Assembly: GCA_030598925.1 (NCBI GenBank)
Contig: JAUVPB010000004.1
Span: forward strand, 1-32,737
Source: Actinomycetes bacterium
Lineage (GTDB): Bacteria > Actinomycetota > Thermoleophilia > Gaiellales > Gaiellaceae
Reading direction: 5' to 3'
DNA length: 32,737 bases
Shown: one piece after another, positions 2,586 through 15,461 of the stretch
Numbering within the stretch: the first letter of the stretch is position 1
Layout of the letters: the number at the start of each line of letters is the position of its first letter
Notes under the pieces: model-generated
The model's database searches: none
Seen by the model: the letters and a program-made list of their open reading frames with translations, nothing else
What the model was told of the DNA's origin: nothing
Made by a program: the position numbers and the translations under genes

Positions 2586-2591
2586 TAACAT
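2586..2591 (+). promoter_or_regulatory. Possible -10 (TAACAT) of the peroxiredoxin gene
   Basis: TAACAT matches TANNNT and would place a transcription start around 2598, leaving a short leader that contains the GGAGG ribosome binding site at 2616-2620. No clear -35 is seen. A small perfect hairpin (CGCCA-GGG-TGGCG, 2564-2576) precedes it but lacks a T-run. Confidence 0.3.
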
Positions 2592-2625
2592 GTCGTTCCG
2601 ACGATTCTCGACCCTGGAGGTTCTC

Positions 2626-3288
2626 ATGGCACTTCGGATCAACGACGTAGCTCCGGATTTCAGTGCGGAGACCACAGAGGGTCCCATCAACTTCCACGAT
2701 TGGATCGGCGACGGCTGGGCGATTCTCTTCTCGCATCCGAAGGACTTCACGCCCGTGTGCACGACGGAGCTCGGCACGATGGCCGGGTTGAAGCCGGAGT
2801 TCGAGAAACGAAACTGCAAGATCCTCGGGATCAGCGTCGACGCCGTGAGCGACCACGAGAAATGGTCGAGGGACATCCAGTCGGCCACAGGAAACGCAGT
2901 CAACTACCCGCTCGTCGGCGACCCCACGCTCGATGTGGTCAAGCAGTACGACATGCTGCCGGGCGATGCCGGCGACACCGCTGCCGGGCGCACGCCGATG
3001 GACAATGCGACGGCACGATCGGTGTTCCTGATCGGTCCTGACAAGAAGATCAGGGCAACCCTGACGTATCCGATGAGCACGGGCCGCAACTTCGCCGAGA
3101 TCCTGCGACTGCTCGACTCCGTTCAGCTGACGGCAGCCGAGAAGGTCGCCACGCCTGCGAACTGGCAGAACGGCGACGATGTGATCATCGTTCCGGCGAT
3201 GTCGGACGAGGACGCGAGGGAGAAGTATCCCGACGGCTGGGAGTCACCGCTCCCGTACATCCGGGTCGTACCGCAGCCTGGGCGCTAG
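2626..3288 (+). CDS. 1-Cys peroxiredoxin (Prx6 subfamily)
   Basis: A cytosolic thiol peroxidase that reduces H2O2 and organic hydroperoxides. The 220-residue length and long C-terminal domain (with VIIVPAMSDEDA and a YIRVV end) are typical of the Prx6 group. The peroxidatic cysteine is Cys45 in DFTPVCTTELG. One other cysteine, Cys64 in RNCKILG, is not at the usual resolving position, so an external reductant is likely. GGAGG at 2616-2620, five bases before the ATG at 2626, fixes the start against the longer ORF beginning at 2578. The gene is convergent with the phosphodiesterase; the two stop codons lie 3 nt apart. Confidence 0.95.
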   Translation: MALRINDVAPDFSAETTEGPINFHDWIGDGWAILFSHPKDFTPVCTTELGTMAGLKPEFEKRNCKILGISVDAVSDHEKWSRDIQSATGNAVNYPLVGDPTLDVVKQYDMLPGDAGDTAAGRTPMDNATARSVFLIGPDKKIRATLTYPMSTGRNFAEILRLLDSVQLTAAEKVATPANWQNGDDVIIVPAMSDEDAREKYPDGWESPLPYIRVVPQPGR

Positions 3289-7183: not shown

Positions 7184-8136
7184 CCGAGCGCGAACAGTAC
7201 GACGCGCTGGTAGCCGGCTCGCCCCAGGGGTCGGTCTTCAGCGCGAGCTGGTGGCTGGACGCCGTCGCTGCCGGCGCTTGGCAACCCCACGTGGTCGAGG
7301 AGGGCGATCTGATCGCGGCGTGGCCGACGATCGTCCGTTCGAGCCGGTGGGGGCCCGTGCATCTCGGCGCGCCGCTCAGCCCCTTCCTCGGGCCGCTGCT
7401 GCCTGAGGCCGACGGCGGAAAGCGGCGCTGGACAACGGCCGAGAAGAGCCTCGAACTTCTCCTCGACGCGCTCGCGCCGTACGCGCACCTCGAGGCACGG
7501 TGCCATCCGAGCTTCAACTACTGGACGCCTCTCGCGTGGCACGGCTTCTCGCAGACGACGAACTACACGTGGCGGCTGCACGACCTGAGCGATCTCGGCG
7601 CGGCCGAGGCAGCGATGCGGCCAAACATTCGTGGTGATATCCGCAAGGCGCGCAAGCAAGGCGTCGAGGTAACGCAGGAGGGCGTTGCCGAGTTTCTCGA
7701 GCTGCACGCCGCCTCGACGCAGGGGCTAGAGCAACTCGCGCTCGACACGCGACACACGCTCGAACGCGTCGATGAGCCGGCCCGCGAGCGCGGGTCCCGC
7801 CGTGTTCTCATGGCGCGCGGGGTCGACGGCAAGGCCCATGCCGGCGGCTACTTCGTCCAGGACGAGCGCGCCGTCTATTACCTCGCTGGCGCAAGTGACG
7901 CGACGCTGCGCTCGAGCGGAGCGACCTCCCTTCTCATCTGGACGGCGATCGAGTTTGCCGCCGAGTTCGGGTTGGCGTTCGATTTTGAGGGCTCGATGAT
8001 TCCGAGTATCGAGCGCTTCTTCCGCGCATTCGGCGGGGCGCCAACTGCCTACTCGGTCGTGCGGCACACTCCGCGCGCTGGCCTGCGGGGTGAGCGTGCG
8101 CTCAAGCGCACGCTACGTCGTGTCTCGCGACGCTAG
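7180..8136 (+). CDS. FemAB/BioF2-like GNAT-fold acyltransferase
   Basis: A 318-residue protein resembling the Acetyltransf_6 (GNAT, BioF2-like) / FemAB group, which transfers acyl or aminoacyl groups to surface polymers or their precursors. Recognisable parts are the substrate-side MRPNIRGDIRKARKQGVEV and the C-terminal GATSLLIWTAIEFAAEFGL followed by DFEGSMIPSIERFFRAFGG, where the G-S-M-I-P and F-x-x-x-F-G-G pattern is typical. It starts at a TTG within the sulfotransferase stop (ATTGA), so it is translationally coupled. Its TAG overlaps the convergent stop of the transglycosylase gene in a shared CTAG. The transferred group is unknown. Confidence 0.85.
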   Translation: MTEREQYDALVAGSPQGSVFSASWWLDAVAAGAWQPHVVEEGDLIAAWPTIVRSSRWGPVHLGAPLSPFLGPLLPEADGGKRRWTTAEKSLELLLDALAPYAHLEARCHPSFNYWTPLAWHGFSQTTNYTWRLHDLSDLGAAEAAMRPNIRGDIRKARKQGVEVTQEGVAEFLELHAASTQGLEQLALDTRHTLERVDEPARERGSRRVLMARGVDGKAHAGGYFVQDERAVYYLAGASDATLRSSGATSLLIWTAIEFAAEFGLAFDFEGSMIPSIERFFRAFGGAPTAYSVVRHTPRAGLRGERALKRTLRRVSRR

Positions 8137-8651
8137 CGAAGTCCGAGCTTCGCCGAGCAGGAAGGCCATGCACCCCAGCCGGCAGCTCGCCGAAGACGCT
8201 TCGCCGCACGAATCTGCTGGTACGGCGCTGCTTGCCACGCGAACTTGGGATAGCTGTTGCGGCGGTACGAGTTCCAGGTCTGCGGGTGGAACTGGAGTCC
8301 ACCATCGTAGATCGCGGAGCCGTTGTAAGTCCAGACGCCTCCCGACTCGCAGTCAGCGAGGCGTGTCCACACGCTGTCGGGGTGTGGTGTGAGCCCGCGT
8401 GCCTTCTTGCGCCGCTGGGTCCAGATGATCAGCGCCTCTAACCTCACTGCCCTGTTGTCGACCGTACGGTAGGAGAAGTCCGTCCTGTACATGCGTCGAC
8501 CGATAGTCCGGCGTATCTGGTTGGTCTCCTTGCGCAACTGGTCGATCTCCTGGACCATGGACGGTAGGGCGGGGCGACGAGCGTCGGCGTCGGCGGCTCC
8601 CAGCAACGCGCCGGCGAGTACAAGCGCTGCAATTAGTGTCGCCTTCCTCAT
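8133..8651 (-). CDS. Secreted Rpf-like transglycosylase
   Basis: A 172-residue exported protein. Residues 1-25 form a signal peptide (MRK, hydrophobic core, cleavage near ADADA-R). A charged stretch around 32-50 may be a short coiled coil. Residues 95-172 are a transglycosylase-like (resuscitation-promoting-factor) domain with WTRLADCESGG, whose Glu102 matches the catalytic glutamate, then YDGGLQFHPQTW and the closing GWGAWPSCS. Such enzymes cleave peptidoglycan and in actinobacteria promote regrowth from dormancy. The ORF track's TTG at 8654 is one codon upstream; the ATG at 8651 sits better behind AAAGGGGG. Transcribed alone. Confidence 0.9.
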   Translation of the reverse strand: MRKATLIAALVLAGALLGAADADARRPALPSMVQEIDQLRKETNQIRRTIGRRMYRTDFSYRTVDNRAVRLEALIIWTQRRKKARGLTPHPDSVWTRLADCESGGVWTYNGSAIYDGGLQFHPQTWNSYRRNSYPKFAWQAAPYQQIRAAKRLRRAAGWGAWPSCSAKLGLR

Positions 8652-8864
8652 CAAAGCCCCCTTTCGTCCGTGAAACCGACCTCGGTGGGCCGGGCTGCGT
8701 CGAATGTCGTGGAATCGCCGCTCAGATCGCGCCTGGGCGGTTGCGAGGCGGGAAACGACTCCTCGCGTTGTCCGCGGCTATTCTGCACGGCTTTTCCTGC
8801 GATGTCGAGCCGGAACCGCGATGCGGCACGAAGGTTTGACAGACAATTTCCGTTTTGTTGACGT
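8652..8864. other. 213-bp intergenic spacer
   Basis: This lies between the start of the Rpf-like gene and the stop of the HyuAB fusion, both on the minus strand. It should hold the Rpf promoter and leader. I find the ribosome binding site but no convincing -10/-35, riboswitch core or terminator with a T-run. Short ORFs here are shadows. Confidence 0.5.
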
Positions 8865-11800
8865 CTACTCGGCGCCGCCGAGCTGGTCGCGCAGAGCGGC
8901 TGTCGCTTCCTCGTCGACCGTCATCGTCGGCTCGTCGACGACCACTCCGTAGGCGGCGCGTGCCTGCTCGACCGTGTGGAACCCGTCGAGCACGTCGTCG
9001 AGTACCTGGGCGGGCGGGCGCTCGAGCGGGTCGCCGTAGCCGCCAGAGCTCGGCACCACGATCTCCACACAGTCGCCCGCAGCCATACGGAAGTTCGTGA
9101 ACTTCGACGGCCAGTCTTCCTCGCCGGCCTCCCCGGGATTCTTGCGGGTCGACGCGAGCTGGCCCTCGTGGCCGCCGAAGATACCCCAGGGTGGGTCGCC
9201 GTAGAAGCGCTCGCCCTCGCTCGCGATGATCGTGTCGACGAGAAACCGATTGACCCGGACGGTGCCGATACCACCACGCCAGCGGCCGGGGGCTGCGGGT
9301 TCGTTGCGTAGCTCGTACCGCTCGGTCCTCATCGGGAACCGCCACTCGAGCTCCTCGATCGGATTGTTGCGCGTGTTGGCTACGAGCGAGTCGACCGAGT
9401 CCCAGCCGTCAGCGCCTTCGCGCCCACCGTGCGAACCTTCGTTCACCTCCAGATACACCCAGTACTCGTCCTCATCCGGATCGAAGCCGCTGTAGGAGAA
9501 GAACGTCGTCGCGGCGGAGTTCCCGGCCGTGATCTTCTCGGGAATGACCGGCGCCAGAGCCTGCAGCGTGAAGTCGACCATTCGCTGGATCTGGCAGAAG
9601 CGCGCCTTCGTCGCACGCGGAAACCGCGGGTTGAAGATCGATCCTTCCGGCGCGATCACGTTGACGGGCGCGAGCATGCCCTCGTTCTGGGGTACGAAGA
9701 CGTCGTACGTCGCCTCGTCGAGGAAGATCGTTCTCACGATGTACGTGGCAGCGCTCATGACCGCGCCCATGTAGGGCGAGTTGAACGCCGTCTCGGTCTC
9801 GCTGCTCGAGCCTGTCGTGTCGATCGTCAGCGTGTCGCCCTCGATGATGACCTTGATCTTCACCGGCAGGCGCGTGCCGTAGTTCTTCCCGTCATCGTCC
9901 ATCCACCCGACCGGCACGTCGTACTCGCCGTCGGGGACCTTGGCGATCTCCTGCCTCAGCATGCGCTCCGAGTAGTCGAGCCAGTCGTTCGCGGTGCCGA
10001 GAACCGTGTCCTTGCCGTAGCGGCGAATCAGCTCGACGAACCGCCGCTTGCCGCGCTCGCACGCGGCGATCATCGCCTCGATGTCACCCTTGTTGTGTGT
10101 CGGGGTGCGGACGTTCGTGAGCATCGAGCGCCACGCGCCGTCCTGTCGCTCTCCCTTCGAGGAGAGCTTCAACGCGTCCCAGATCTGGCCCTCGGCCCAC
10201 ATGTCGACGAGGTCGATCGCCATGCCTGGATACGCGCCCCCGATATCAAGCAGGTGCGCTGACGCGCCCGAGAACGCAACGAGCTCTCCCTCCCAGAAGA
10301 TGGGCACGACGATGCCGATGTCGGGCGAGTGCGTCGCTCCCTTGTAGGGGTGGTTGTGCGCGATCACGTCACCGTCGTGGATGTCCTCGCCGAGCTCTTT
10401 GATCACCCCCTTCACGATCTTCGGCATCGCGCCCATGAACATCGGCGTCGAGTCGGACTCCGCCAGCTCGTTGCCCTCGCGGTCGAAGATTCCGGCGCCA
10501 AGGTCCTCGGACTCACGGATGATCGAGCTGTAGGACATGCGGAAGAGGATGCTCGACATCTCCATGGCAATCGACTGGAATGCGCCACCGACCACGCGCA
10601 TGAGAACGGGCGTAGCGAGGCCGGCCCCGTGCCCGCCGGCTGCGCGGTCGTCGGCTCGGGTGCAGTCGACAACGATGTTTCCGTGTCGATCGATCGTCGC
10701 GACAAGCCCGGGCGGCACCACGGTCGTCGAGTCGTATTGCTGGATGATCGCCGGGCCAATGAGCTCGTGCCCGGCGCTCAGCGCCTCGCGAGCGAAGAAC
10801 GGCGTCCGCAACGTTCGCGGCTCGCCGTCCACCTCGAATATGACGTCGGCCTCGTTCTTCGCGACGGGTGAACCGGACGCCGGCTCGGTTTCGGGCCAAT
10901 CGAGCGGGGGGACGAGGCCGACCGCCATCACGCGCACGTTGACGATCTGAATCTTCGCGTCGAAGCGTTGTCCGTACTCTCGCTCGTGTGCCGTGTGGAA
11001 CGACATCTCTGTGGCCGCGATCCACTCGTCGTCGATCGCCCCGGACGGCACTTCGCACCGAACCTCGTAGCCCTGGCCCACGTACCGGCAGTCCGCGAAT
11101 CGTGTGACGACTGCGCGCTCACCGGTGTAGCCATCGCGTATTAGCAGGTCGTCAGCCTGGCTCTCGAGCGCGTCGAGCGTTCCGGCGAACCCGGTGGCGT
11201 CGAGCCGGTCGAGCCGTTCCATTACCGTCGCGACGAGCTCGTGCAAGACGTCCGTGGCGAGCAGTCCTGTCGCCGACGTGATGCCTGGATGGGGCGGCAC
11301 GAGCACACGCGGGATGTCGAGCTCGAGCGCGATGTCACACGCGAACAGGGGTCCTGCTCCGCCGGCCGCCACCAGCGTGAAGTCGCGCGGGTCGTAGCCG
11401 CGGCGGACCGAGTTCAGTTCAATCGACTGCGTCATGCCGAACTTCTGGACCTGCAGCAGGCCGAGCGCGGCCTCGGTGGTGCTGATGCCGAGCGGCTCCG
11501 CCACGCTGGCCAACGCTTGTTCGGCCTGGTCGCGGTCGAGCGGCATCTGTCCGCCGAGGAGCCCTTCGGCGGGGAGGCGTCCGAGCACGAGCTGCGCGTC
11601 GGTCGATGTCGGCTCCTTGCCTCCGCGGCCGTAACAGGCGGGGCCGGGCTCAGCGCCGGCGCTCTGTGGCCCGACCCGAAACACGCCGCCGCGGTCGACG
11701 TACGCGATCGAGCCGCCGCCGGCGCCGATCGTGTCGACGTCCACCATCGGCACCATCGCGTGGTAACCACCGACGGTCGTGTCGACGAGGTGCCGCATTC

Positions 11801-12719
11801 GCAGCTCGCCGCCGGGGGCGACGCCGATGTCGGCGGAGGTACCGCCGATGTCGAGCGTGACGACGTTCTCGTAGCCGGCCATGCGACCTGCCCAGATGCC
11901 ACCGATCAGGCCCGCGACGGGTCCTGACGTCAGCAGCGACACGGGCCGTGCGCTCGCAACCTCGGCGCCGACGGTGCCGCCGTTCGATTGCATGAGCTGG
12001 AGGTCGTGGGCGAACCCGGCCGTCTCGAGAGCCTCGGCGAGCCTGCGGATGTACTCAGAGACGCGTGGCCCGATGAACGCGTTCAGGCAGACGGTTGAGA
12101 AGCGCTCGTACTCTCGATACAGGGGGAGCACCTCGTGCGAGACCGAGCGATATGCCTCCGGGAACTCCTCTTCGAGAATGGTCGCGATGCGCTGCTCGTG
12201 TTCCGGGTTCAGGTAGGAATGGAGCAGGCAGACGGCGACCGCGTCCACACCGGCAGCCTTGAGCTCCCGCACGCGGTTACGGGCCTCCTCGTCGTCGAGC
12301 GGCGTCAAGACGTCGCCCCGCGGGGTCGTGACGCGCTCGCTGACGGTGAGCCGGTTTCGGCGCCGCACGAGAGGGCTGCTCTGCCACGGCAGCTCGCAGT
12401 GCAGCGAGAAGTTCTTTGGCCGCTTGTGGCGCGCGATGTGCAGGATGTCGCGCATGCCCTCTGTGGTGATCAGGCCGACGTTCGCGCCGTCGCGTTCGAG
12501 CACGATGTTCGTCGCCACCGTCGTCCCGTGCAGGACCGCGTCGATCTCTGCGAGCGACAGACCCTGCGCTTCGCAGAGCCGCTGGATGCCGGCGACCGTG
12601 CCCCGCGCCGGATCGTCGGGCGTCGAAGGCACTTTGTCGACCCGGATGGCTCCGGCCTCCTCGTCCACGAGGATCAGGTCGGTGAACGTTCCACCTACGT
12701 CAACACCGATCCGCTTCAT
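8865..12719 (-). CDS. Fused hydantoinase/oxoprolinase A-B protein (HyuA-HyuB in one chain)
   Basis: A 1284-residue ATP-dependent hydantoinase/5-oxoprolinase-type enzyme, which opens a lactam or hydantoin-like ring with ATP. The N-terminal ~690 residues are HyuA: DVGGTFTD nucleotide-binding strand, GTTVATN, DIGGTSADIG, TIGAGGGSIAY and SAGAEPGPACYG. After a Gly/Ala linker (AAGGHGAG) HyuB begins at GGAFQSIAMEM and continues through HNHPYKGATHSPDIG, the glycine-rich GRWRGGIGTVRV and PSSGGYGDP. Bacteria often encode these as two genes; one chain matches the eukaryotic OXP1 layout. ATG 12719 is preceded by GAGGAG with 7-nt spacing. It diverges from the amidohydrolase across 250 bp. The exact substrate cannot be inferred; the HyuB half also resembles acetophenone-carboxylase-type subunits. 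Confidence 0.92.
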   Translation of the reverse strand: MKRIGVDVGGTFTDLILVDEEAGAIRVDKVPSTPDDPARGTVAGIQRLCEAQGLSLAEIDAVLHGTTVATNIVLERDGANVGLITTEGMRDILHIARHKRPKNFSLHCELPWQSSPLVRRRNRLTVSERVTTPRGDVLTPLDDEEARNRVRELKAAGVDAVAVCLLHSYLNPEHEQRIATILEEEFPEAYRSVSHEVLPLYREYERFSTVCLNAFIGPRVSEYIRRLAEALETAGFAHDLQLMQSNGGTVGAEVASARPVSLLTSGPVAGLIGGIWAGRMAGYENVVTLDIGGTSADIGVAPGGELRMRHLVDTTVGGYHAMVPMVDVDTIGAGGGSIAYVDRGGVFRVGPQSAGAEPGPACYGRGGKEPTSTDAQLVLGRLPAEGLLGGQMPLDRDQAEQALASVAEPLGISTTEAALGLLQVQKFGMTQSIELNSVRRGYDPRDFTLVAAGGAGPLFACDIALELDIPRVLVPPHPGITSATGLLATDVLHELVATVMERLDRLDATGFAGTLDALESQADDLLIRDGYTGERAVVTRFADCRYVGQGYEVRCEVPSGAIDDEWIAATEMSFHTAHEREYGQRFDAKIQIVNVRVMAVGLVPPLDWPETEPASGSPVAKNEADVIFEVDGEPRTLRTPFFAREALSAGHELIGPAIIQQYDSTTVVPPGLVATIDRHGNIVVDCTRADDRAAGGHGAGLATPVLMRVVGGAFQSIAMEMSSILFRMSYSSIIRESEDLGAGIFDREGNELAESDSTPMFMGAMPKIVKGVIKELGEDIHDGDVIAHNHPYKGATHSPDIGIVVPIFWEGELVAFSGASAHLLDIGGAYPGMAIDLVDMWAEGQIWDALKLSSKGERQDGAWRSMLTNVRTPTHNKGDIEAMIAACERGKRRFVELIRRYGKDTVLGTANDWLDYSERMLRQEIAKVPDGEYDVPVGWMDDDGKNYGTRLPVKIKVIIEGDTLTIDTTGSSSETETAFNSPYMGAVMSAATYIVRTIFLDEATYDVFVPQNEGMLAPVNVIAPEGSIFNPRFPRATKARFCQIQRMVDFTLQALAPVIPEKITAGNSAATTFFSYSGFDPDEDEYWVYLEVNEGSHGGREGADGWDSVDSLVANTRNNPIEELEWRFPMRTERYELRNEPAAPGRWRGGIGTVRVNRFLVDTIIASEGERFYGDPPWGIFGGHEGQLASTRKNPGEAGEEDWPSKFTNFRMAAGDCVEIVVPSSGGYGDPLERPPAQVLDDVLDGFHTVEQARAAYGVVVDEPTMTVDEEATAALRDQLGGAE

Positions 12720-12969
12720 AGTCCGTCTCCTCGAGCTTCGGCTGGCTGGCGTGCGCACGCTATCGATCAGGCTGCGTCAATGGGTCGACGTACCGTCGTG
12801 TTGGTGTCTCCGAGCCGTCGCCAAGTCATCGATCGTGAGTACGATCTCGCCCACGCGTCGACGCGCGCGTGTGTCGTTGCGCAGCGAGGGCGCGTACGGG
12901 AAGATCTTTACCGAGCTCGGCCAACGGGAGGCGATTGCGAGTCGCTTGAGGAAGAGGAGGCATCGGCTC
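12720..12969. other. 250-bp divergent spacer between HyuAB and amidohydrolase
   Basis: It holds the ribosome binding sites of both flanking genes and presumably both promoters. The amidohydrolase frame stays open through the proximal part from a possible GTG near 12835, giving a basic, unfamiliar N-terminal extension, so a longer start is possible. I see no clear operator, repeat or terminator. Confidence 0.5.
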
Positions 12970-14091
12970 ATGTGGAACGGAAACCTTGTCATCGACGCGG
13001 TCGCTCACGCGTATGACTTCGTCGATTCGAACCGAATGGATCACTGCTCGCCCGAGGAGTACGCCGGCCTGATCAAGTTCGTCTACGATCTCGGGCACGG
13101 ACCGCTCGAGTCGCGCGAGCCCGGCTACCTCCTGAACGACGAGGAGTGGTCTGCGGGCTGGACTCCCGAGGAGCTGGCGAGCGTCTACTTCGAGGAATCC
13201 GACGTCGACGTAGTGGTCTACCACGGGGTCGAGATCGCCGCCTACTTCAAGCGCGGGTCGTCTCCGTGGCAGATCGGCGTCGAGCTGAAGAAGCTCTATC
13301 CCGATCGGGTCTTGCTCTATGCGCCGGTCGACCCGCTGAAGGGGCTGGGTGAGCTCGAGACGATGGAGCGCCTCATGGAGGAGGCGCCGATCAACGGCTT
13401 CAAGTTCTACCCCTCGAACGGCATGATCGATCACGAGCGAAACAGGGCGATGACGACGATGTACGACGATCCCGAGAAGGCCTTCCCGTTCTTCGAGAAG
13501 GGCCGCGAGCTCGGGGTCAACGTCATGGCGATCCACAAGGCGTGGCCGGTCGGCCCGGGGCCGCTCGACAAGGACAAGATCGACGACGTCAACAGCGCCG
13601 CGGTGGCGTTTCCGGATCTCATCTTCGAGGTCGTCCACTCCGGCTGGGCGTTTCTCGAGGAATGCGGCATCCAGCTGATGACGCACCCCAACATCTGGGC
13701 GAACCTCGAGGCCGTGGCGAACTTTGCCGTCCGCCAGCCGCGCCGGTTCGCGCACGTCATCGGCACCCTCATGCGCTACGGCGGCGACGATCGAATCATG
13801 TGGGGCACCGGTTGCCCGCTCGGTCATCCGCAGCCGATGGTCGAGGCATTCGCGAACTTCCAGATGCCCGAGGACTTGCAGGAAGGCTACGGCTACGTGC
13901 CGCTCAGCGATGAGACCAAAGCGAAGATCTTCGGCGGCAACATGGCGCGTCTGCACAGCCTGGACGTGGAAGGGATCAAGCGGTCGACTGCGACAGACGA
14001 CTGGGCGGAGCGGCGCCGCGTGTACGTCGAGGCTCCTGACGGTCCGTGGCGCGATCTGCGCAAGCGCGTCGAGGCAGGCGTCGCCGCGTGA
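12970..14091 (+). CDS. Amidohydrolase_2-family protein with altered metal-ligand motifs
   Basis: A 373-residue TIM-barrel protein of the ACMSD/LigW-like amidohydrolase group. The order of segments fits: VIDAVAHAYDF at strand 1, NGFKFYPSNGM, MAIHKAWP (His189), FEVVHSGWAF (His223) and the strand-8 segment IMWGTGCPLGHPQ, then a C-terminal ETKAKIFGGNMARLH. Two canonical ligands are missing: the strand-1 HxH reads V-A-H and the strand-8 Asp of GTD/GSD reads Gly281. It may bind one metal differently or be non-hydrolytic. AGGAGG ending at 12960 supports ATG 12970. The stop overlaps the DUF59 start (GTGA). From memory, similar amidohydrolase/DUF59 pairs occur beside actinobacterial propane-type diiron monooxygenases, but none is in this window. 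Confidence 0.85.
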   Translation: MWNGNLVIDAVAHAYDFVDSNRMDHCSPEEYAGLIKFVYDLGHGPLESREPGYLLNDEEWSAGWTPEELASVYFEESDVDVVVYHGVEIAAYFKRGSSPWQIGVELKKLYPDRVLLYAPVDPLKGLGELETMERLMEEAPINGFKFYPSNGMIDHERNRAMTTMYDDPEKAFPFFEKGRELGVNVMAIHKAWPVGPGPLDKDKIDDVNSAAVAFPDLIFEVVHSGWAFLEECGIQLMTHPNIWANLEAVANFAVRQPRRFAHVIGTLMRYGGDDRIMWGTGCPLGHPQPMVEAFANFQMPEDLQEGYGYVPLSDETKAKIFGGNMARLHSLDVEGIKRSTATDDWAERRRVYVEAPDGPWRDLRKRVEAGVAA

Positions 14092-14495
14092 GCCCCCACA
14101 GTCTCGCCGGTCGCGTTCGCTCTGCCGTCAACGACGTTCCCGATCCGTGTTCCGTCTCGCAGGGCGTGCCTACCGGCCTCGTAGACATGGGGCTCCTCTG
14201 TGCGATTGACGTCGAGCCCCCGGTCGATGGCCGAAGCAGCGTCACCGTGCGTCTGCGGTTGACGGGCCCCGGCTGCCTGTACGCGATCTACTTCGAGCGC
14301 GAGATCCGCGAGCGAGTCGAAGCCATGCCGGATGTCCGACAGATCGAGATCGACTTCAGCCCGGAGTTCGACTGGTCGCCCGACGACATCGCGCCTCACG
14401 TGCAGGAGCAGCTGAGAGAGCGCCGCGAGCGGCTGATCGCGCAGCTGCCTGTCCGCGGCGACGGACTTGCACCCGCGCCCGCGTCGCGCGCCTAG
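14088..14495 (+). CDS. DUF59 / MIP18-family protein (PaaD-type)
   Basis: A 135-residue protein with the MIP18/DUF59 pattern: a VPDPCSVS start, GLVDMGLLCAIDV, then VRLRLTGPGC with the conserved Pro-Gly-Cys. Family members (PaaD, SufT-like, metal-sulfur cluster assembly factors) help mature or insert Fe-S clusters in partner enzymes. The start is a GTG inside the amidohydrolase stop, so the two are translationally coupled and probably act on the same target. The C-terminus is charged (QLRERRERL) and ends in an Ala/Pro tail. The protein does not look like part of a complete SUF operon; no sufBCDS is nearby. Confidence 0.82.
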   Translation: MSPHSLAGRVRSAVNDVPDPCSVSQGVPTGLVDMGLLCAIDVEPPVDGRSSVTVRLRLTGPGCLYAIYFEREIRERVEAMPDVRQIEIDFSPEFDWSPDDIAPHVQEQLRERRERLIAQLPVRGDGLAPAPASRA

Positions 14496-14522: not shown

Positions 14523-15461
14523 CTAGAAGGTAGCCGAGCGCGCGCCGCTCGCGATCAGCAGCAGGATCACGATCGCCAGCACGATTCGATAGATCACGAA
14601 GCCGGTGAAGCTGTGCCGACGCACGAGTCCCAGCAGGGCGTGGATGGCGAATAGGCCGCTGCCGAATGCGGCGATCGTCCCGACGACGAACGGCCCCACC
14701 CAGCCGCTGGGCAACTCCCCGAATCCGACGTCTTTGACAGCCGTGTAGATGACGGCGGCCACCGAGACCGGTACCAGGAGGAGGAAGGAGAAGCGGGCCG
14801 CGGTGTCGCGGTCGAGCCGGAGCGCACGCCCGGCAGAGATCGTGATGCCTGAACGTGAGACGCCGGGCATCAGCGCCAGGCACTGCAGTAGGCCGACCAC
14901 GACGGCGGTCTTCATCGTGAGGTCGCTGAACTTGCGGTCCTGAGGTCTGCGGTCGGCCAACCAGAGCACGACGCCGAAGACCGCTAGCAGGATCGCAATC
15001 TGCCACGGCTCGCCGAGGTGGCTCGAGATCTTGTCGGCGAACAGGCCGCCGACGATGAGCGCCGGGATTGTGGCGATCGCGACAAACCAGGCAATCCGCT
15101 CGTCTGTCGTCTTGATGGTGCGCGTGCGGAGCGTGCCGAGCCAGGCTGCTGTCAGCCTGGAAATGTCGGTCCAGAAGTACATGATCACCGCGACCGTCGT
15201 GCCGATGTGAAGCGCAACGTCAAACGTCTGGTTGAACGCGTCGTTGTCCTCGAGGAACGTCCATTCGGCGAGCCAGGGCACGAGAATCAGATGGCCCGAG
15301 GACGAGATCGGCAGCAGTTCCGTGAGGCCCTGGACGATGCCGAGCGCAAACGCCTGCCAGTTGGACAGAGCAGTTGCTTCTTCGGCGAAGCCGGCCGCAG
15401 CTAATACAAGTGCGATGAGTATCGCCGCGGCCGCTATCGCGTACGTACGGACACGGCCCAC
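14523..15461 (-). CDS. uppP: Undecaprenyl-diphosphatase UppP (BacA)
   Basis: An integral membrane phosphatase that converts undecaprenyl pyrophosphate to the monophosphate, recycling the lipid carrier for peptidoglycan and other surface polymers. The 312-residue length is slightly longer than usual because of an N-terminal hydrophobic segment (residues 6-25) before the core. Signature motifs are QGLTELLPISSSGHL (residues 44-58) and PGVSRSG in the second half. Several transmembrane helices are evident. The GTG start at 15461 has no Shine-Dalgarno but a TACGAT -10 lies 10 nt upstream. It is convergent with DUF59 (27 nt between stops) and divergent from the cytochrome c gene. Confidence 0.96.
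   Translation of the reverse strand: MGRVRTYAIAAAAILIALVLAAAGFAEEATALSNWQAFALGIVQGLTELLPISSSGHLILVPWLAEWTFLEDNDAFNQTFDVALHIGTTVAVIMYFWTDISRLTAAWLGTLRTRTIKTTDERIAWFVAIATIPALIVGGLFADKISSHLGEPWQIAILLAVFGVVLWLADRRPQDRKFSDLTMKTAVVVGLLQCLALMPGVSRSGITISAGRALRLDRDTAARFSFLLLVPVSVAAVIYTAVKDVGFGELPSGWVGPFVVGTIAAFGSGLFAIHALLGLVRRHSFTGFVIYRIVLAIVILLLIASGARSATF

Follow-up and report, generated by a model that had tools for sequence, protein, structure and literature searches.

A conserved gene pair of an amidohydrolase-fold protein with an altered ligand set and a two-cysteine DUF59 partner

The active sites of amidohydrolases lie at the C-terminal ends of the barrel strands. In ACMSD, gamma-resorcylate decarboxylase and LigW, a strand-1 pair and a strand-8 Asp hold one metal, and we know of no dedicated DUF59 partner for any of these enzymes. 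Barrels of the same family, PF04909, can also be dinuclear oxygenases, as exemplified by AibH2, PtmU3 and SfbO (the AROs), and AibH2-like proteins are paired with a small Rieske protein, AibG in the case of AibH1H2 (PMC7782822, PMC10401708, PMC10811679). The ARO ligands follow the pattern Asp-x-His, His, Glu, Asp-x-x-His (D25, H27, H211, E265, D337 and H340 in AibH2), the partner is a Rieske ferredoxin, and these papers describe no DUF59 partner for them. DUF59 proteins themselves (PF01883) are best known from SufT and CIA2 (MIP18), which have a general role in Fe-S maturation and carry a single conserved cysteine. Their motif, DPE-X26-31-T-X2/3-C, places D, E, T and C on shared solvent-exposed loops that form a pocket in several structures; SufT with its one cysteine does not bind an Fe-S cluster, and carriers have two or more cysteines (PMC9045647, PMC4982691).

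Genes for the two folds have been seen together in monooxygenase operons of the mim/prm type. At three such loci in our collection (L125, L131 and L142) the gene order is monooxygenase alpha, reductase, beta, MmoB, amidohydrolase, DUF59, GroEL, in agreement with the pairs that the initial annotation had described, and the operon figure of PMC9213486 marks the same amidohydrolase and DUF59 genes. Text searches of the literature on the amidohydrolase/DUF59 pair returned no functional paper.

The window analysed here is the whole stretch of 32,737 nucleotides, positions 1 to 32,737 of contig JAUVPB010000004.1 (assembly GCA_030598925.1, forward strand). It holds an amidohydrolase-fold gene that overlaps a DUF59 gene, with the following features.

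8865-12758, minus strand: HyuA-HyuB fusion, 1297 aa, divergent from the pair (profile match)
12955..12960, plus strand: ribosome-binding site AGGAGG, 9 bases 5' of the ATG (sequence)
12970..14091, plus strand: amidohydrolase-fold protein of group A, 373 aa, ATG start (Pfam Amidohydro_2, PF04909, E 8.9e-21)
13000..13002, plus strand: Val11, where the first His of the PF04909 HxH is expected (alignments)
13006..13008, plus strand: His13, the second His of HxH, invariant in group A (alignment of 89)
13222..13224, plus strand: His85, last residue of strand 2, candidate new ligand, invariant in group A (alignments, model)
13534..13536, plus strand: His189, at the end of strand 5, invariant in group A (alignment, model)
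13636..13638, plus strand: His223, directly past strand 6, invariant in group A (alignment, model)
13708..13710, plus strand: Glu247, directly past strand 7, candidate new ligand, invariant in group A (alignments, model)
13810..13812, plus strand: Gly281, at the usual site of the strand-8 Asp ligand/base (alignments)
13825..13827, plus strand: His286, after strand 8, invariant in group A (alignments)
14088..14091, plus strand: GTGA overlap of the amidohydrolase stop and the DUF59 GTG start, 4 bp (sequence)
14088..14495, plus strand: DUF59 partner of the DPC type, 135 aa (PF01883, E 7.6e-6)
14148..14150, plus strand: DUF59 Cys21 of DPC, Glu in ordinary DUF59 (80/80 partners)
14274..14276, plus strand: DUF59 Cys63 of T-x3-C, the usual reactive cysteine (80/80 partners)
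14523-15461, minus strand: BacA family gene, convergent on the pair (profile match)

With the HyuA-HyuB fusion divergent on one side and the BacA family gene convergent on the other, the pair stands alone as a two-gene unit. The initial annotation had described a divergent HyuAB fusion and an amidohydrolase overlapping a DUF59 gene at GTGA, and both descriptions hold; the PF01883 match scores 26.6 bits against a cut-off of 23.5. The fusion itself has as its best NCBIfam matches caprolactamase alpha and acetophenone carboxylase gamma, followed by caprolactamase beta, all well under cut-off.

Homologues were gathered by a whole-protein search of the host phylum, tblastn of plasmid records and a scan of 84,980 prokaryote species. 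The amidohydrolase relatives split into three well-separated groups and a small fourth. Group A comprises 89 sequences, including that of the window, to which the others are 34-63% identical; group B (e.g., L005, L012, L020 and L039) shows 37-43% identity to the window protein; group C (L003, L033, L043, L124, L125, L127 and L129-L131), which takes in the mim/prm-type proteins, shows about 27-33%; and group D (L126, L140 and L141) is a rhizobial set. Branch support in the maximum-likelihood tree is 97 for A (with L028), 100 for B and 99 for C. The hosts of group A belong to the Actinomycetota, the Alpha-, Beta- and Gammaproteobacteria and the Myxococcota, together with one cyanobacterium, one Bacillus and haloarchaea; the named ones are from lineages that we take to be aerobic.

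What sets group A apart is its putative metal site. The window protein reads VIDAVAH on strand 1 and MWGTGCP on strand 8, and the claim that two of the usual ligands are gone from V-A-H and GTGC can be extended to the entire group: position 11 is Val, Thr, Ile, Ala or Ser and position 281 is Gly in 89/89 sequences, the window included, so that the classical mononuclear set (HxH, strand-5 His and strand-8 Asp) occurs in none of them. In the joint alignment of groups A-D, the divergent L028 has Ala in place of Gly281. Nine residues are invariant across all 89 members (His13, His85, Lys145, His189, Lys190, His223, Glu247, Gly281 and His286), among them the two histidines, His189 and His223, that had been listed as retained. 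Glu247 was part of one of the two peptide patterns with which the species were scanned, which makes the count for this residue partly selected, and the same Glu is also present in loci from the whole-protein search (L007, L009, L027, L028, L034-L038 and L040-L042). The fixed strand-8 motif is [TS]G, not TGC: the loss of the Asp noted initially stands, and Cys282, present in just 28/89 sequences, can be rejected both as part of the pattern and as a substitute ligand.

The sister groups fill these positions differently. Taking the commonest residue at columns 11/13/85/189/223/247/281/286 of the joint alignment (window numbering), group A reads V,H,H,H,H,E,G,H; group B reads V,H,(M or Q),H,H,A,E,H; group C reads H,H,Q (mostly),H,H,A,D,variable; and group D reads A,H,C,H,H,P,E,H. 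Group C thus holds the textbook ligand set (HxH, strand-5 His, strand-6 His and strand-8 Asp), and in groups B and D the first His is missing and strand 8 has Glu. At position 85 the sister groups have Met, Gln, Leu, Cys and the like, and at position 247 Ala or Pro. Judged from these alignments, group A has apparently given up two usual ligands and taken on two candidate ones, His85 and Glu247; ligands shifted to other residues were what the initial annotation had named as evidence against its own interpretation, and the alignment fits such a shift. Decay into a pseudogene can be dismissed, as the two genes are open, overlapping and conserved and the same residues are gone in all homologues.

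The predicted structure puts the candidate residues near the ends of barrel strands. An AlphaFold2 model built from 57 aligned group A sequences (pLDDT 95.8, pTM 0.94) is a (beta/alpha)8 barrel, which together with the profile match places the protein in the amidohydrolase superfamily family PF04909. The first seven strands end at residues 12, 85, 120, 146, 189, 222 and 245, and the eighth begins shortly before 279 or ends there; His13, His85, His189, His223 and Glu247 lie at most two residues from the C-terminal strand ends, and His286 is in the loop past strand 8. The His/Glu candidates would accordingly be expected close together at the barrel mouth in this model. A Foldseek search of the PDB returned 3irs, gamma-resorcylate and 2,3-dihydroxybenzoate decarboxylases, LigW and ACMSD, most of them at TM about 0.5-0.6 and the ACMSD, gamma-resorcylate decarboxylase and LigW matches with prob 1.00; 2dvt is among the structures matched. 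When the 57-sequence profile was compared with solved structures, 3irs was the sole convincing match (E 8.8e-6); ankyrin (DARPin) matches from a single-sequence search of solved structures were set aside as chance. Relative to ACMSD, gamma-resorcylate decarboxylase and LigW, the fold, the second His of strand 1 and the strand-5 and strand-6 His are retained, whereas the strand-1 pair and strand-8 Asp that hold their metal are not.

The second gene of the pair is almost always there. A profile of small proteins found a DUF59 gene adjoining, or less than 1 kb from, the group A gene in 86/88 other loci, so that the proposed conserved linkage of the two genes is upheld. The overlap between them is usually 4 or 8 bp; the DUF59 gene is upstream in L064 and L067 and about 950 bp downstream in L046. 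At L120 the DNA record stops 165 bp past the group A gene, and in the draft genome of L045, whose protein is 58% identical to that of the window, a search for a DPC-type DUF59 found none. There the unpaired group A gene lies between dapB-like and dapA-like genes (7352-11007). At L075 the DPC-type DUF59 profile matches a second time near the first pair (2591-3148, minus strand).

Like SufT and CIA2 (MIP18), these partners have the PF01883 domain and a D-P-x .. T .. C motif, but they differ in that the motif is DPC..T..C in 80/80 (the T in 79/80), with the ordinary DPE..T..C found in none, and in that they are linked to one enzyme. Asp19, Pro20, Cys21, Gly35, Cys63 and Trp96 are invariant in 80/80, giving two invariant cysteines where ordinary DUF59 proteins have one; DPE is retained by both generic DUF59 genes of the genome that the window comes from. 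The exchange of Glu for Cys should set a second thiol beside the reactive one, and the partner may on this basis bind an Fe-S cluster via its two cysteines. Evidence on contact between the two proteins comes from L060, where the two genes share a reading frame and a single stop codon separates them; with the stop read as Ser, the resulting 491-residue chain was modelled by AlphaFold2 (pLDDT 94.7, pTM 0.84). From the pTM formula we estimate that a chain with the DUF59 part unplaced would give about 0.71-0.75, and a value of 0.84 corresponds to a mean error of about 7 A for the DUF59 part, linker and tails included. The pTM of a fused chain is an indirect measure, and it lends mild support to a predicted docking of DUF59 on the barrel.

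Partners of this kind accompany the sister groups as well. In group B, a six-frame profile search placed DUF59 directly upstream in 21/22 loci, the 22nd beginning at a contig end, and the protein is of a DPCC type with a second cysteine motif. The DUF59 of group C is longer and of the DPE type; most loci have it downstream, L043 upstream. In group D the place of DUF59 is taken by a NifU-type CxxC protein, possibly one Fe-S-type partner replaced by another. On the Shinella, Ensifer and Pararhizobium plasmids that carry these last loci (L126, L140 and L141), an A-x-H / GSE amidohydrolase is followed by the NifU-type CxxC protein. No DUF59 or NifU-type gene neighbours the ordinary PF04909 paralogues L128 and L002. 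The latter, from the window's own genome (contig C308), is a PF04909-like protein whose strand 1 (IDITINPFTP) has no HxH and whose strand 8 keeps GTD.

The recurrence of DUF59 or NifU-type proteins across groups A-D implies that an Fe-S-type partner stays with the barrel even as the barrel's ligands, and the very fold of the partner, change. Barrels that lack the first His (A, B and D) have partners with two or more cysteines, and the intact barrel (C) has the partner with one motif cysteine. Since each change took place once or twice on the tree, this correspondence is suggestive rather than a replicated correlation; group A in particular arose once, so there is no independent replicate for the joint change in enzyme and partner. 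Group B offers the nearest parallel, in that the first His is gone and the Fe-S-type partner has two or more cysteines, and differs (VxH + GSE) in having a strand-8 Glu, neither His85 nor Glu247, and a DPCC-type DUF59 upstream.

We consider that the pair has about an even chance of being a catabolic metalloenzyme of two components, whose metal site has been relocated and which has its own Fe- or Fe-S-handling partner. The barrel would be a functional enzyme in which His85 on strand 2 and Glu247 on strand 7 have taken over from the lost strand-1 His and strand-8 Asp; together with His13, His189, His223 and His286, the two would make up a His-rich site that has one carboxylate. DUF59, as a dedicated partner with a second cysteine gained in its pocket, would bind Fe or an Fe-S cluster and dock on the barrel, to which it would either deliver the metal or remain attached as a cofactor-bearing subunit. 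Such a module might serve aerobic small-molecule catabolism, with the substrate varying from genome to genome. The neighbourhoods are in keeping with this proposal: SDR dehydrogenases (27/89 loci), CoA ligases (27) and GMC oxidoreductases (15) recur, a Rieske oxygenase and its reductase are found at about 10 loci each, mostly in Streptomyces, and P450, FAH hydrolase, alpha/beta hydrolases, acyl-CoA dehydrogenase and HbpS-like proteins are also seen. Only DUF59 is general among the neighbours of the 89 loci, and judged by gene content group A looks like a catabolic step used in differing pathways.

An alternative that we hold to be unlikely is that the barrel is a redox enzyme, in which O2 is activated at a relocated Fe/Mn site that receives its electrons from the two-cysteine DUF59 (or NifU), much as AibG is paired with AibH1H2. 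The lineages of the named hosts, which we take to be aerobic, and the catabolic neighbours would fit such a role. AibH2, PtmU3 and SfbO set a precedent for a PF04909 oxygenase with a small Fe-S protein (PMC7782822, PMC10401708, PMC10811679), and the likeness to group A extends to a departed metal site, a catabolic context and, for the AibH2-like proteins, a small Fe-S neighbour. The ARO ligand set is, however, absent from group A, which has Val-x-His, His223 and a Gly with a His five residues on, and so differs at three of the four strands, the equivalence of AibH2 E265 with strand 6 being read from spacing. Small Rieske genes (a Rieske motif in an ORF of <250 aa within 4 kb) were found at 0/89 group A loci, and there is no conserved dedicated reductase. 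We know of no precedent for DUF59 as an electron carrier. Group A is thus not a member of the AROs and may, by analogy, have a comparable working mode. It is likewise improbable, though conceivable by the same analogy, that group A represents a new class of amidohydrolase-fold redox enzymes, combining a His-rich Fe/Mn site with a DUF59- or NifU-fold Fe-S electron donor or shared-cofactor subunit; that such a class would be analogous to, and independent of, the AibH2/Rieske oxygenases is a tentative suggestion of the same low standing.

The initial annotation had raised the idea of a maturation or scaffold module. A catalytically dead barrel and DUF59 would then help in the assembly of some other metalloenzyme, for instance a diiron monooxygenase, and we regard this as distinctly unlikely. 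It draws on the related group C pairs, which sit between diiron monooxygenase genes and groEL (also PMC9213486), and on DUF59 proteins being maturation factors (PMC4982691, PMC9045647). The group C pair does belong to the same PF04909 subfamily with the same DUF59 pairing, but its HxH..H..H..D is intact, its DPE-type DUF59 is longer and has one motif cysteine, and it often adjoins diiron monooxygenase and GroEL genes, unlike group A. The window pair falls outside it, in a separate clade with other ligand columns and a short DPC-type DUF59. Group C retains the full classical ligand set, and the mim amidohydrolase makes up about 3% of the proteome, an enzyme-like level, though the GroEL-like MimG is similarly abundant (PMC7176365). 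In group A, a full, invariant and partly new His/Glu set at the predicted barrel mouth would be unexpected in a dead barrel, which disfavours a scaffold.

Nor does a client emerge from gene content. No client is common to the group A neighbourhoods: GroEL and diiron oxygenases are absent from the recurrent neighbours of the 89 loci, no diiron monooxygenase or GroEL gene forms an operon with the window pair, and no PF02332 monooxygenase was found in the window's genome (83% complete) by a search that was positive on a control plasmid. The suggestion that the pair serves an unlinked oxygenase thus finds no backing in group A, which has no oxygenase or GroEL partner. HyuAB, the other proposed client, can be discarded, as hyuB lies within about 8 kb in just 7/89 loci, mostly 5-8 kb off. 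A group C amidohydrolase/DUF59 pair on the Rhizobium sp. N324 plasmid (L127, 1158-8797) is also divergent from an aminotransferase-hyuA-hyuB cluster.

Finally, a cofactor-free enzyme that has lost its metal and relies on acid-base catalysis by His and Lys, with an unrelated role for DUF59, agrees with the absence of two classical ligands and with the existence of PF04909 enzymes that have no cofactor (PMC10811679), but is highly unlikely because it leaves unexplained both the simultaneous gain of His85 and Glu247 and the near-universal Fe-S-type partner.

The pair is a real, conserved two-gene module. Its gene pairing, residue swap, phylogeny and predicted fold are results of this analysis; the bound metal and its identity, the docking, the role of the cysteines and the reaction are predictions. 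Most of the over 100,000 proteins of PF04909 (PMC10811679) are annotated as amidohydrolases by default, and in group A the usual ligands are replaced in a fixed pattern. A metalloenzyme with a dedicated cofactor-handling partner would yield a concrete prediction of what amidohydrolase/DUF59 pairs are for, among them the unexplained pair of the propane and acetone monooxygenase operons. A further suggestion is that DUF59 genes of this kind, annotated as "iron-sulfur cluster assembly protein", encode the dedicated partner of a specific enzyme, which this label hides.
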